Made by a program: the position numbers and the translations under genes
Shown here: positions 16,218-25,053 of the stretch, one piece after another
Layout of the letters: each line of letters begins with the position of its first letter
Position numbering within the stretch: the first letter of the stretch is position 1
Notes under the pieces: generated by a model
What the model was told of the DNA's origin: nothing
The model's input: the letters and a program-made list of their open reading frames with translations, nothing else
The model's database searches: none
Origin: Chthonomonas calidirosea T49
GTDB lineage: Bacteria; Armatimonadota; Chthonomonadetes; Chthonomonadales; Chthonomonadaceae
Assembly: GCF_000427095.1 (NCBI RefSeq)
Contig: NC_021487.1
Span: 3,271,241-3,335,240, forward strand
DNA length: 64,000 bases
Direction: 5' to 3'

Positions 16218-19200
16218 TCAGTCGTGTGATTGAAGCAACTTCAACGCATGGTGGCCGGCATCGAGGAGAGCCATCTCTTTGCCTTGAGCGTAGCACTCCT
16301 CCCAATCTGCTTCGGTGTGTCTACGCTTTCTTTGGGTGATGTTCTCGCTCCTTGCCCTCTGTTTGGTTGGGTCAAGAACCAAGCCGGTGGTATCTTGATG
16401 ATGTTCGAGCGCACCCCAGAGTCGAGCGGCCTCGAGATCGTCGTGCGGTGGCAAACAAAGAGCGGCGGTTGCCAACGCTTCGACCAGAAGAATGGCGTTA
16501 GGTGCTAGAGTTAACAAAGTCAACGCTTCTTGTAGAGGCGGAATGACGGCGGTAAACTCTGCTTTGGTGCTGTGCAAGAGTTTTGCTTTTAAGGTGTACA
16601 ACATAGGAAGGAGCGCCCGCTCTTCGGAGCGACATGCCAACTGAATGGCCTCTTCGAGGTAAGCTTGTGCCGCATCCATTTGGGCTTGTTCCAGTGCGAT
16701 AGCGCTAAGTTCATGGAGGGCATAGGCGATGGCACGTGTCTCTTGCGTTTGGCGCGCAAGAGTTAGGCTTTGTTGGCAAAGGGCGTGGGCATCTTCGCAA
16801 TTTTGCTGGAGGCGAGCCAACCTGCCGAGATTAAGTAGGATGAAGGCGATGCCACCCACATCTTCCCATTTTTGAAAATGCTCCAAAGCCTCTTGTTGCA
16901 GCGCGGCAGCTTCCTGGTAATTTCCTAGATATAGCTCCACAATGCCCAGGTTTCCCAAAGCAAAGCCTAGCACCCGATCGCCGAGTTCCCGAAGTTTATG
17001 AGCGCTCTGTTGCAAATAGGTTCTTGCCGCTTGAAGGTCACCTCGTTCTAGCGACACGATGCCCATCATGCCCAACACACCACATGCCCTATCCTGGGTA
17101 CCTATAGAACCATGGACGTCCCAGGCTTGCTGCAGCAACATCCATGCTTTTGTGAGATCTCCGTTTACCCATGCCAGCTGCGCGCATTGACGCAGTGCTG
17201 AAGCGAGATAGGCTTTATTGCCCAGTTGTTCAAAGAGAACACAGCACTCTTCCAAACAGGTACGTGCTGTGGCATAATCTCCTGCGTCGAACGAGAGCCA
17301 ACCAAGTCCGTTAAGTGCCTTTGCATAGGTCAAGTCGCGTTGAGGGTAACAGGCTAGCGCTTTCGATAGCCAGCTACGACCTTCTTTATAGGCACCGCGT
17401 ACCATCCAGTAGAGGGTAAGCGCCTCTGCGAAGATTGCACCTTTCTGCGGTTCCTTTGCAAAACACCAGTCTAAAGCGGCCCGCACATTGGCATCGTTTG
17501 TTTTTAGGTAGGACAACCACTCTCGTCTGTGCAGTTCGCTTTCGCTCTGTTGCCCGGAGAGCACTTTCTGAAAGAAGAAGTGATAATGGAGGTCACACAA
17601 CCTATTTCTTTCCTCATCCCGTAGGTAACGCGCCGCGTACTCTCGAATCACCTCCAGCATTCGATAGCGGGTCTCTCCTTCCTGTTCCACCTCTATAAGC
17701 GAGTTGGTGCGAAGCGTTTCCAATGCCTGCATGGTCTCTAAAAGGCTCTCCCCGTCGAAACAGACCTTACAAGCGGCCTCAGCGTCCCAACCTCCTTGGA
17801 AAACCGATAGGCTCGCAAAAAGCTTTCGTAGGCGTATGGGAAGGAGATGATAACTCGTATCGAGAACCCTTTGAAGGGAACCCTGTCGATCGCCTTTCTC
17901 AAGAGAGGAGGTATCTACCGTCCAGTTGAGACGATGGGTAAATTGGGCTCGCATTTGGGCGGGGGAGAGCATTTGGGCGTGACTACTGACCAGCTCGATC
18001 GCAAGAGGATGTCCCTCGATCCATTGGCAAATCCAGGCCACGTCGTTGCGGTTACGCTCGTTCAAAAGAAATTTACGATTATGGCTTTGCAATCTATCTA
18101 TAAACAGGGCTACGCTAGGGCACTGCAGCAGTTCGTTAAGCCCCATATTTGCGCTAGGAGTAGGCAACGGCTTTAGCCAAAGCTCCCGGTCTCCCCGAAT
18201 GCCGAGCCTCTTTCGAGAGGTCACAAGGCAACACAGATGAGGTAGCCGTTCCAAAAGGTGCTGGATAGTGGCGGCTGCTTCGGGTAGCAGGTGTTCTATG
18301 TTGTCAAGAATCAGTAGACAATCCCCCTTTGCCTCCATAGCCTGAATGAGGTGTTCGAGAGGCTCTTGATGGTGCCCTTGTGAGATATCCAAGGCGTCCA
18401 TAATCTCATCTCCAATGAGGGCTGAGTTGGAGAGACTAGCAAATGGAATAAACCAGACACCCCCACCAAAACAGTCTTGTACCCTTTCGGCTGCTTCAAT
18501 AGCAAGGCGTGTTTTTCCGATGCCGCCTGTTCCAAGAAGGCTGATAAGCCGATACTGATGCGAGCTAGGAACGAGGTGCTGTTGGATCCACTCTAGCTCC
18601 TCTTCTCGTCCAAAAAACCGTGTAAGGCGTGGAGGGATGGATTGTCTTTGCTGAGGAGACTTTGGTACTTCGGTTGCGATTAGAATTGGAAGGACATTCT
18701 GAGCGGTCTGCTTCTTGTTGCCCAGATGCCCGAGTTGTGCTTGGAGTTGCTGTGCGAGCGCTTTTACTTTTGGGGAAGGCGCAGCGCCTAACTCTTGGCG
18801 AAAAAGTGCTTCAAGCTGTTGATAGTGGCGTAGAGCGGTAGAAGGCTGGGCGGTTAGGCTGTAGAGCTGAATAAGCTCGTAGTGGGCCTCTTCGTCCAGA
18901 GGCTCCGCGTAGACGGCTTTTTGGGCGTACTCTATGGCTTGCTGGAAGTCTCTATTCTGCTTTAACAGAGTGGTCAGTTTACGCAGTGTGTGATAGTAAA
19001 CCTCGGAGAGATACTGTCGCTGTGCAAGCACCCACTCCTCCTCATTCCCCGGCAGTAGCTCGCCTTTATAGAGAGCGACCGCCTCTTTTAGAGCGGCGAT
19101 ACATTCTTGCTCGTTCGGAGCATTATCGGCCCATTTGATCTTATAGAGCATATCGAGTACATCGGAGGTAAAGGCATGAGGGTGCAGGCTCACGCTTAGA

Positions 19201-19481
19201 CGGTTGCTCTGCAGAATAAGCCCGCGTTTGGTGCCCGGCGGTTCGAGATGATAACGCAGGGATGTTAGCATGACACGCAGCCGATTTTTTGCGACCTCCG
19301 GCTCCTCTTCCGGCCAGAGGAGCGCAAGAAGTTCTTCGCGGGGAGCGGAGTGGGAGCTATGCAGAATGAGATAGGCTAATAGCGCTCCCATCTTGCGGGT
19401 AGGTAGTCGGAAGTGAGTTTTATTATCTAGATAGGCCCTTAATCCGCCCAATAGCTCGATACGCCAAGCTTGGTTCATCAT
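16218..19481 (-). CDS. BTAD/SARP-type regulator with NB-ARC ATPase and TPR repeats
   Basis: This 1087-residue regulator of the AfsR/SARP architecture has an OmpR-like winged helix (about 5-95), a bacterial transcriptional activation domain (about 95-245), an NB-ARC-type P-loop ATPase with GTGGIGKTR near residue 320, and about ten TPR-like repeats (600-1000). Such proteins are ATP-dependent transcriptional activators that respond to partner binding. ATG 19481 follows GTGAGG at the proper distance; a GTG at 19496 is in frame but contains that site. It lies downstream of, and is separated by a terminator from, the secreted-protein operon, which makes it a candidate regulator of that operon (inference only). 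Confidence 0.88.
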   Translation of the reverse strand: MMNQAWRIELLGGLRAYLDNKTHFRLPTRKMGALLAYLILHSSHSAPREELLALLWPEEEPEVAKNRLRVMLTSLRYHLEPPGTKRGLILQSNRLSVSLHPHAFTSDVLDMLYKIKWADNAPNEQECIAALKEAVALYKGELLPGNEEEWVLAQRQYLSEVYYHTLRKLTTLLKQNRDFQQAIEYAQKAVYAEPLDEEAHYELIQLYSLTAQPSTALRHYQQLEALFRQELGAAPSPKVKALAQQLQAQLGHLGNKKQTAQNVLPILIATEVPKSPQQRQSIPPRLTRFFGREEELEWIQQHLVPSSHQYRLISLLGTGGIGKTRLAIEAAERVQDCFGGGVWFIPFASLSNSALIGDEIMDALDISQGHHQEPLEHLIQAMEAKGDCLLILDNIEHLLPEAAATIQHLLERLPHLCCLVTSRKRLGIRGDRELWLKPLPTPSANMGLNELLQCPSVALFIDRLQSHNRKFLLNERNRNDVAWICQWIEGHPLAIELVSSHAQMLSPAQMRAQFTHRLNWTVDTSSLEKGDRQGSLQRVLDTSYHLLPIRLRKLFASLSVFQGGWDAEAACKVCFDGESLLETMQALETLRTNSLIEVEQEGETRYRMLEVIREYAARYLRDEERNRLCDLHYHFFFQKVLSGQQSESELHRREWLSYLKTNDANVRAALDWCFAKEPQKGAIFAEALTLYWMVRGAYKEGRSWLSKALACYPQRDLTYAKALNGLGWLSFDAGDYATARTCLEECCVLFEQLGNKAYLASALRQCAQLAWVNGDLTKAWMLLQQAWDVHGSIGTQDRACGVLGMMGIVSLERGDLQAARTYLQQSAHKLRELGDRVLGFALGNLGIVELYLGNYQEAAALQQEALEHFQKWEDVGGIAFILLNLGRLARLQQNCEDAHALCQQSLTLARQTQETRAIAYALHELSAIALEQAQMDAAQAYLEEAIQLACRSEERALLPMLYTLKAKLLHSTKAEFTAVIPPLQEALTLLTLAPNAILLVEALATAALCLPPHDDLEAARLWGALEHHQDTTGLVLDPTKQRARSENITQRKRRHTEADWEECYAQGKEMALLDAGHHALKLLQSHD

Positions 19482-19519
19482 CGTTGTTTGCCTCACGACA
19501 ATCTAAAGATCTCTCTAAA

Positions 19520-19626: not shown

Positions 19627-19669
19627 TAAAAAACGCCCTGCTTCGCAGGGCCATACGGCGAAGCAGGGC
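19627..19669 (-). terminator. Rho-independent terminator of the secreted-protein operon
   Basis: A perfect 12-bp stem, GCCCTGCTTCGC (19635-19646) with GCGAAGCAGGGC (19658-19669), has an 11-base loop. On the minus strand it is followed by GTTTTTTAGG. It lies 46 bp past the stop of the GloVer protein gene. An alternative small hairpin CCCTGC-TTC-GCAGGG can form inside it. Confidence 0.9.
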
Positions 19670-21637: not shown

Positions 21638-22186
21638 TCAAAGCTCTCGGATGGCCTGTCTTCTGCTTCGGGCGCGATATAGAGATAGGGCTGCGACCAG
21701 CATAAAGAGCAGGGTTAAGCTTGCAAGCGATCCCATCTCCGGGGTTGTGGCCGAGGAGGTGAGAGTCACTTGAAACGGCTCGCTTGCCAAGACGTTTGTA
21801 TCCGAAGCGGTGGCACCCCCCAAAATAGAGTAGGTACCGACGTAGTTTCCGGCAGGTGCGCTCTGCGGATTGGTGGCTGTGAACAGGGCGATCAAGCCGG
21901 TAGTATCTCCTGGGTTAAGAGAGGGGGGGGCGTTGTTGAAGAAGTCGGTGTCATCAAGCGTCCAACCCGTTGCAGCAAACGAGAAGTTGTCGGCGTTTAG
22001 AAAAACGGTAGAGGTTCCGTTGTTGGTTATCGTGCCGATAAAGGTAAAGAGGTTGCTTGTTCCGGCAGGCCCCGATTGAAGAGCGGGGCTAAGCGTCAGG
22101 GAGATTTGGGCCTGCGCTTTTCCAAGCCCACCCCAAATGACCAATAGCAGTACAGTGAGAAGTAGAGGCGATTTCACTGTTTTCAT
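21638..22186 (-). CDS. Secreted protein with PEP-CTERM-like C-terminus
   Basis: This 182-residue protein has a signal peptide (cleavage near AQA), a beta-sandwich body rich in Asn/Thr/Gly, and a C-terminal TPEMGSLASL segment followed by a hydrophobic helix and RARSRR. That layout is the PEP-CTERM sorting signal recognised by exosortase, which cuts and anchors or releases the protein. The motif is a variant (TPE rather than VPEP). ATG 22186 is chosen because the signal peptide starts there and AAAGGAG precedes it; the frame is open to 22231. It is the middle gene of the secreted-protein operon. Confidence 0.75.
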   Translation of the reverse strand: MKTVKSPLLLTVLLLVIWGGLGKAQAQISLTLSPALQSGPAGTSNLFTFIGTITNNGTSTVFLNADNFSFAATGWTLDDTDFFNNAPPSLNPGDTTGLIALFTATNPQSAPAGNYVGTYSILGGATASDTNVLASEPFQVTLTSSATTPEMGSLASLTLLFMLVAALSLYRARSRRQAIREL

Positions 22187-22247
22187 GTTTGTTCTTTCTC
22201 CTTTGATAGTTTTAGAAGACTGGTATTTCACCTAAGTTTGTTTCGTT

Positions 22248-23696: not shown

Positions 23697-23741
23697 ACTA
23701 TAACAGGCCATCATTAGCCCATCATTAGCTCGTTCATTAGC
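23697..23741 (-). promoter_or_regulatory. Promoter of the lectin operon with three direct repeats
   Basis: On the minus strand an extended -10 (TGT before TATAGT, 23702-23697) is preceded by three copies of GCTAATG at 23741-23735, 23729-23723 and 23718-23712. The spacings are 12 and 11 bp, and the last copy ends 9 bp before the -10. Helical-phase direct repeats in the -35 position are typical of OmpR/PhoB-type activators. The activator is not identified. Confidence 0.6.
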
Positions 23742-23891: not shown

Positions 23892-23925
23892 CTTAACATT
23901 CTCTTAATATTTTGCGGGTTATAAT
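23892..23925 (+). promoter_or_regulatory. Pho-box-like promoter of the pst operon
   Basis: Two direct repeats, CTTAACAT (23892-23899) and CTTAATAT (23903-23910), are 11 bp apart and replace the -35 box. TATAAT follows at 23920-23925 after 9 bp. PhoB/PhoP/SphR boxes have this design, and the downstream genes are the phosphate transporter. This strongly suggests activation under phosphate limitation. Confidence 0.75.
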
Positions 23926-24003: not shown

Positions 24004-25053
24004 ATGAATTTCAGGAGGTACCTGAGACAAGCAGGAAGTGTGGGGTTGTTGCTGCTGATGGTTTCTGGATATGCGCTTGCACAGAGTGTTACCTTGCGAG
24101 GGGCGGGCAGCACCTTTGCAGCGCCGATCTATACGCAGTGGTTTGCAGAGTATAAAAAGGAGACAGGGGTCTCTGTGGACTACCAGGCGGTGGGGTCGGG
24201 TGCCGGAATCAACGCGCTAAAGAATCGTACCGTAGATTTTGGAGCAACGGACGCACCCTTAACCGATTCCGACCTCAAGCAGATGCCTTTTCCCGTGGTG
24301 CAGATTCCCACTTTGGGAGGAGCTGTGGTAATGACCTACAACCTGCCGGGGGTTGGGTCAGGCCTGCGGCTCACCCCAGAGATCATCGCCGATATCTACA
24401 TGGGCAAGATCAAAAAGTGGAACGACCCACGTATCTTGGCCATCAACTTTATTAAGAACCTACCCGATCTGCCTATCCATCCCGTTCACCGCTCCGATGC
24501 TTCGGGAACAACCTATATTTTCACAAGCTTTCTCACGAAAGCCGTTCCCGAATGGGCAAAACAGATAGGCTCGGGAAAGTCGGTGAGCTGGCCGGTTGGA
24601 ATCGGCGGCCAGGGTAATCCTGGAGTAACAGCCAACATTATGCGCACCAAGGGAGGGTTCGGTTATGTGGAGCTAGCTTATGCCATCCAGAACCATCTGC
24701 CGCTAGCCTCCGTGCGGAATGCTGCCGGGAACTTCGTTACCCCCAGCGTTACCACCACCAACATCGCTATTGGACAGTATATCGGCGCTCTGAAAAAGGA
24801 CATTCGCACTCCCACCGTCTATGCTCCCGGCGTCAATAGCTATCCCATATGCGGGCTGACCTATGTGCTGATCTACCAGCACGGGGGAAGCAATCCAGGA
24901 CCGGTAACTAAGCTGTTCAGTTGGGCGATGGGCGAGAAAGCTCAGGAAATGGGAGAGAAGCTTTACTATGCTCCTCTACCACCCTCCTTAATAAAGCTGA
25001 ATTTGGCGGCCCTTAAAACCGTGCAAGGTGCCCAAGTGGCGATAGGGCCTTAA
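24004..25053 (+). CDS. pstS: Phosphate ABC transporter, substrate-binding protein
   Basis: This 349-residue periplasmic phosphate-binding protein has a signal peptide (1-27, ending ALAQS). Conserved ligand segments are GAGSTFAAPIY (residues 31-41), a YQAVGSGAGI loop, DFGATDAPL and HRSDASGTTYIFT. The ATG at 24004 follows GAAAGGAT. It is the first gene of the pst operon, 14 bp before the fused permease gene, and lies behind the Pho-box-like promoter. Confidence 0.96.
   Translation: MNFRRYLRQAGSVGLLLLMVSGYALAQSVTLRGAGSTFAAPIYTQWFAEYKKETGVSVDYQAVGSGAGINALKNRTVDFGATDAPLTDSDLKQMPFPVVQIPTLGGAVVMTYNLPGVGSGLRLTPEIIADIYMGKIKKWNDPRILAINFIKNLPDLPIHPVHRSDASGTTYIFTSFLTKAVPEWAKQIGSGKSVSWPVGIGGQGNPGVTANIMRTKGGFGYVELAYAIQNHLPLASVRNAAGNFVTPSVTTTNIAIGQYIGALKKDIRTPTVYAPGVNSYPICGLTYVLIYQHGGSNPGPVTKLFSWAMGEKAQEMGEKLYYAPLPPSLIKLNLAALKTVQGAQVAIGP

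Follow-up and report, generated by a model that had tools for sequence, protein, structure and literature searches.

SARPs are a kind of regulator known from the control of antibiotic production in Streptomyces, and to our knowledge they have been studied almost exclusively as activators of antibiotic clusters in actinomycetes. A search of the literature available without subscription found no study of such regulators in the little-studied phylum Armatimonadota. Described SARP sites consist of heptads or octamers repeated directly every 11 or 22 bp, with approximately 8 bp between the final repeat and the -10 element (PMC10936776). When AfsR is bound, it makes contacts to the leading 8 bp of each 11-bp repeat and leaves the final 3 bp free, and the box is centred at -29.5 (PMC10936776). 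Sites composed of three heptads are known for PimR and others (PMC5930380, PMC3367932, PMC10972967), and the heptads of the PimR site are separated by 4-bp spacers (PMC5930380, PMC3367932). In Streptomyces, the sites of AfsR and PhoP overlap at afsS, AfsR also binds pstS and phoRP, and the two regulators compete at some promoters (PMC10972967).

The locus described here lies within a 64-kb window, the whole stretch of DNA that was analysed, and its features are listed in Table 1. The GCTAATG triple in front of the lectin operon is predicted to be the operator of the large AfsR-type SARP activator encoded behind that operon, a reading to which we give a probability of roughly 0.83 on the sequence evidence. 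The SARP is proposed as the ligand because its gene adjoins the operon, the geometry fits that of SARP sites, the arrangement recurs elsewhere in the phylum, and repeats and recognition helices covary. The mechanism, SARP activation through phased repeats, is a known one, and its targets and phylum are apparently unreported.

AfsR of Streptomyces coelicolor and the window SARP exhibit the same order of wHTH, BTAD, NB-ARC and TPR domains (PDB 8hvr, 8jke, 8k60; PMC10936776). The afs box resembles the window site in having 11-bp direct repeats of 8 bases over the -35 region, approximately 8 bp from the -10, but it differs in repeat sequence, and the window site contains three repeats, one of them spaced 12 bp. 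The target of AfsR is afsS, whereas the predicted target of the window SARP is an operon for exported proteins. The PimR-pimM operator is also composed of three heptads with spacers of about 4 bp, and its regulator gene stands beside a single target, as is predicted for that of the window (PMC3367932, PMC5930380). PimR, a SARP-LAL, differs in that its site is clear of the -35 box, its target regulates pimaricin synthesis and its C-terminal half is unlike that of the window SARP.

Table 1. Features of the lectin operon, its promoter, the SARP gene and the divergent pst promoter (window coordinates)
Feature	Coordinates	Strand	Basis
Large SARP, 1092 aa: OmpR-type wHTH (aa 33-92), BTAD (129-251), NB-ARC (298-428), TPRs	16218..19496	-	Pfam; AfsR PDB 8hvr 1.8e-10; NCBIfam AfsR 8.5e-30, below cut-off
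Intrinsic terminator between lectin operon and regulator gene	19635..19651	-	Sequence
Operon gene 3: exported GloVer-repeat (choice-of-anchor) protein, 635 aa	19715..21622	-	TIGR03803 1.9e-82
Operon gene 2: exported protein, 197 aa, C-terminal hydrophobic anchor	21638..22231	-	Sequence; no family
Operon gene 1: exported L-type (legume-type) lectin, 461 aa	22248..23633	-	PF18483 1.7e-29, PF00139 5.4e-21; signal peptide by inspection
Extended -10 TGTTATAGT, without a sigma-70 -35 match upstream	23697..23705	-	Promoter role predicted from sequence
Repeat 3, GCTAATG(A), 11 bp from repeat 2, 9 nt from -10	23712..23718	-	Sequence
Repeat 2, GCTAATG(A), 12 bp from repeat 1	23723..23729	-	Sequence
Repeat 1, GCTAATG(A), distal	23735..23741	-	Sequence
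Pho-box-like pair CTTAAC/CTTAAT, 11 bp period, divergent pst promoter (separate system)	23892..23908	+	Sequence
pst -10, TATAAT	23920..23925	+	Sequence
pstS, first gene of pst operon	24004..25053	+	TIGR00975 5.3e-97

The lectin operon and its promoter

The three genes of the lectin operon are separated by intergenic gaps of 16 and 15 bases. The gene product of the second gene (21638-22231) did not match any Pfam or NCBIfam family; its C-terminal hydrophobic stretch is followed by a basic tail and resembles a sorting signal. The 30 nearest genomes lack a close relative of the first gene, and the best relative of the lectin, with 41% identity, comes from another family of the same order. The operon is not conserved, hence the GCTAATG site lacks an evolutionary footprint, a point against the SARP reading.

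A motif search placed the three GCTAATG copies of the lectin promoter on the minus strand, with spacings of 12 and 11 bp. An earlier interpretation of the locus, referred to here as the sequence-only reading, had described three exact copies that end 9 bp before an extended -10, and these positions were borne out. The core common to all three repeats is eight bases long, the octamer GCTAATGA, and not just the heptad. The -10 hexamer is TATAGT (23697-23702), which a TG extension turns into an extended -10. Between the last heptad and TATAGT lie nine bases (ATGGCCTGT); counted from the last octamer on the minus strand, the sequence continues with TGGCCTGT and then TATAGT, a gap of 8 nt. No sigma-70-like -35/-10 pair was found in the lectin-pst intergenic region. 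Each repeat is laid out as 8 conserved and 3-4 variable bp, with 8-9 nt to the -10, and the centre of the last two repeats would fall near -28.5 if transcription begins 7 nt past the -10. As in SARP operators, with their direct repeats spaced 11 or 22 bp, the three copies of GCTAATGA are spaced 12 and 11 bp, and the last of them precedes the -10 at the expected distance of approximately 8 bp (9 nt if measured from the heptad, 8 from the octamer) over a poor or absent -35. The 12-bp spacing is one off the published 11-bp rule and recurs at a SARP locus of another genome (L087). The proposal of a helical-phase operator that replaces the -35 and drives a secreted-protein operon is held to be correct.

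The GCTAATG triple occurs once in the 3.44 Mb genome, and the window holds no other exact heptad triple at 10-12 bp spacing. The absence of a second close GCTAATGA operator elsewhere in the genome counts against the SARP reading. The sequence-only reading had looked to conservation of the triple in related genomes, and this was not found, as the triple is absent from 250 other Armatimonadota genomes; since the lectin has no close relative in the nearest genomes, the missing conservation of the triple says little.

The least probable of the explanations considered is that the triple is a chance tandem repeat without a regulatory role, in front of a constitutive extended -10 promoter. Lone copies of GCTAATG are about as frequent in the window as chance predicts (9 seen, 8.5 expected), as that explanation would have it, and the triple is present in at least 118 stretches in species genomes of other bacteria; among the matches listed these are mostly of 12/12 spacing and, judged by spacing alone, look like tandem repeats within genes. 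The triple studied here, however, is noncoding, phased 12/11 and positioned as SARP sites are, and the same layout is found beside SARP genes in other genomes. Only one exact phased heptad triple was found in total in 60 Markov sequences of 64 kb with the dinucleotide make-up of the window, so approximately 0.02 are expected per window even before a -10 or a gene is required.

The SARP regulator

The SARP gene begins approximately 219 bp past the end of the lectin operon and has the same orientation; its real start may be an ATG 15 bases downstream of the start given in Table 1. The N-terminal wHTH is followed by a BTAD, with PF00486 at 29.2 bits (cut-off 26.2) and PF03704 at 66.9 bits (cut-off 22.1), and the NB-ARC and TPR domains of a large SARP are identified by PF00931 at 29.6 bits (cut-off 23.5) and PF13424 at 86.8 bits (cut-off 30.1). 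The N-terminal 260 residues match the solved AfsR structures PDB 8hvr, 8jke and 8k60, and in the alignment the recognition helix AKNRLRVMLTSLRYHL falls on that of AfsR. Residues W74, E76, E77, P79, R87 and R94 of AfsR, described as making contacts to DNA or RNA polymerase (PMC10936776), are kept in the window SARP. The protein is AfsR-like and not AfsR itself, as it scores 103 bits against NF053617, the curated AfsR equivalog model, for which the cut-off is 1430.

In the predicted mechanism, SARP protomers would lie side by side over the missing -35 box, one for each 11-12 bp repeat, and the bound SARP would bring RNA polymerase to the extended -10. A signal would switch on the NB-ARC/TPR half of the protein, upon which the lectin, anchor and GloVer-repeat proteins would be made. 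Of the prediction of an OmpR/PhoB-type regulator, recognition by an OmpR-type winged helix, that of the adjacent SARP, is probable; a shared PhoB regulator is unsupported. Against the SARP reading counts the lack of such phased repeats before the window's own SARP gene and, as judged by eye, before the other two SARP genes of the genome.

Those two distant SARPs (L029, L030) and the OmpR-type response regulators at L033 and L034 all carry a Trans_reg_C domain, and any of them might bind the triple in place of the adjacent SARP. They are encoded far from the lectin operon, however, the neighbourhood of L034 has another phased repeat (AAACCTT), and elsewhere in Armatimonadota the phased repeats adjoin SARP genes. 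Binding by one of these regulators is accordingly judged very unlikely, if a little less so than a chance origin of the repeats.

The pst promoter and its Pho-type box

The sequence-only reading had also noted repeats of 11 bp period at the divergent pst promoter, which were found as CTTAAC/CTTAAT before TATAAT, and had proposed a single regulator for this promoter and that of the lectin operon. In its most specific form, a PhoB-like regulator would bind both the pst box and the GCTAATG triple, and the lectin operon would belong to the phosphate-starvation regulon. Both sites are 11-bp-period direct repeats with a TAAT/TAAC core just before a -10, as expected for the OmpR-type winged helix of PhoB/PhoP on a pho box and, putatively, of the SARP on its own site. 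The shared core is real but short, and the distance to the -10, which had been described as the same, is so only approximately: it measures 10 nt from TAAT in front of the lectin operon, against 11 nt at pst. The genome does encode a PhoB-like regulator (L032; TIGR02154 at 267 bits, below the cut-off of 296) that pairs with a PhoR/PnpS-like kinase, and the overlap of AfsR and PhoP at afsS, with AfsR on pstS and phoRP, offers a precedent in Streptomyces (PMC10972967).

The Pho-type units of this genome, however, form a series of their own. CTTAAY-N5-CTTAAY was found seven times at six places, and the reversed control gave zero. The six places are pst, three prepilin-like genes with a DUF1559-type N-terminus, a gene for a possible outer-membrane protein and a sixth site with no clear target. 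Units in these promoters beyond those that the search required are YTTAAY and never GCTAAT. The lectin repeats and the Pho units are alike at no more than 4.5 of 11 positions on average, against 7.3 among the Pho units, a figure that is inflated by the use of CTTAAY as the search term. The YTTAAY units at 11 bp, which define the Pho box at pst and the other promoters, are not matched by the lectin repeats. By this comparison, the CTTAAY pair looks like a genuine Pho-type box that is served by the PhoB-like regulator at L032. Nothing in the results requires a regulator common to the two promoters; with the pst box in a separate series, the PhoB-like/PhoR-like pair encoded elsewhere and the SARP adjoining the operon, the proposal of one shared regulator is unsupported and its PhoB form improbable, though the least so of the alternatives.

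The CTTAAC repeats outside pst (L143, L144, L146, L147) precede three prepilin-like genes of the H-X9-DG/DUF1559 type and the possible outer-membrane protein gene, which suggests a link between these pseudopilin-like proteins and phosphate starvation.

Phased repeats at other SARP genes

Comparison with other genomes lends good support to the predicted assignment of the GCTAATG site to the adjacent SARP. Neighbourhoods of SARP genes from related Armatimonadota genomes were scanned for phased repeats before a -10. Since a first scan for triple repeats gave few events, pairs were used instead, defined as 8-mer pairs at 11 bp lying 6-9 nt before TAnnnT, with the window promoter left out. A 'LuxR-like' control set proved to be contaminated, with SARPs at 9 of its 20 loci, and the comparison class was therefore made up of the SARP-distant genes of all sets and random regions. 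Repeat pairs were present upstream of 12/53 SARP-adjacent signal-peptide genes, as called by a crude hydropathy rule, versus 3/458 distant genes (p=2e-10), one of the latter being the window's own pst box. Off-phase spacings in the SARP-adjacent class averaged approximately 0.06 each. The other 41 of the 53 genes have no detectable pair, which counts against the SARP reading. As the pair definition had been chosen after earlier scans of the data, the same script was run on a hold-out set of genomes, where pairs were found for 5/72 of all SARP neighbours versus 0/321 distant genes (p=1.8e-4). Signal-peptide neighbours formed a small class in this set (2/11). The hold-out genomes therefore replicate the association with SARP neighbours more firmly than that with exported proteins.

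The combination of a SARP, repeats and an adjacent gene, in many cases one for a secreted protein, is encountered repeatedly in Armatimonadota. At L088, GAAGAGT is repeated three times at 11/11 bp, 7 nt before TAGAAT; this occurs twice, each time before an exported-protein gene that adjoins a SARP gene. The repeats TGTAACG/TGTCACG/TGTAACG at L087 have the same 12/11/9 layout as the window, and L152 contains four heptads, the last of which lies 8 nt before TATACT.

Among 20 SARP-repeat pairs, the window included, repeat similarity tracks that of the recognition helix (Mantel r=0.355, p=2e-4; partial p=1e-4) and does not track the BTAD (p=0.24). TAAYG repeats lie near 7/16 of the SARPs whose residues at AfsR positions 87-88 are Arg-Val, versus 2/117 of the others (p=3e-6), a p-value that is optimistic because the helix classes were defined after the window and the first matches had been seen. 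The window SARP has Arg-Val at these positions, and the adjoining GCTAATGA repeats fit TAAYG. Ser at position 87 goes with GGAG/AGAG-type repeats (9/33 versus 7/100), and these counts serve as guides. Related SARP sequences are not fully independent in any of these statistics. The nearest match to the window operator comes from one of the seven Arg-Val cases with TAAYG repeats, in a hold-out genome (L358:1699-1740), where two copies of GTTAATG precede a prepilin-like gene and adjoin an Arg-Val SARP.

A wider proposal, which we put forward tentatively and at somewhat less than even odds, is that the large SARPs of Armatimonadota act as dedicated local switches, each beside its target gene, often for an exported protein, and each with its own phased repeats, whose sequence would be set by a few helix residues (Arg or Ser at 87 and the residue at 88). 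If true, this would provide a readable protein-DNA code and many insulated cassettes of one regulator and one target. The results presented here link the SARP protein and operator layout to exported proteins outside the phylum of the actinomycetes. With a SARP beside its probable target, the repeats can be read from the DNA and matched to recognition helices, so that the sequence specificity of SARPs is open to direct testing.

Phased repeats were also observed in other settings. GTCCGTG runs at 10-bp spacing are present at L100 and L208, some by a SARP gene and some within a reading frame. In the genome of the window, a probable second GloVer-type exported protein gene (L032:14058-17099) is preceded by two copies of TTTCACG at 11 bp, immediately upstream of TAGAAT, and is not adjoined by a SARP gene; it may be the target of one of the two distant SARPs. 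The AAACCTT repeats (L034:12087-12130) have a period of approximately 11 bp and lie before an exported-protein gene near the third OmpR-type regulator.
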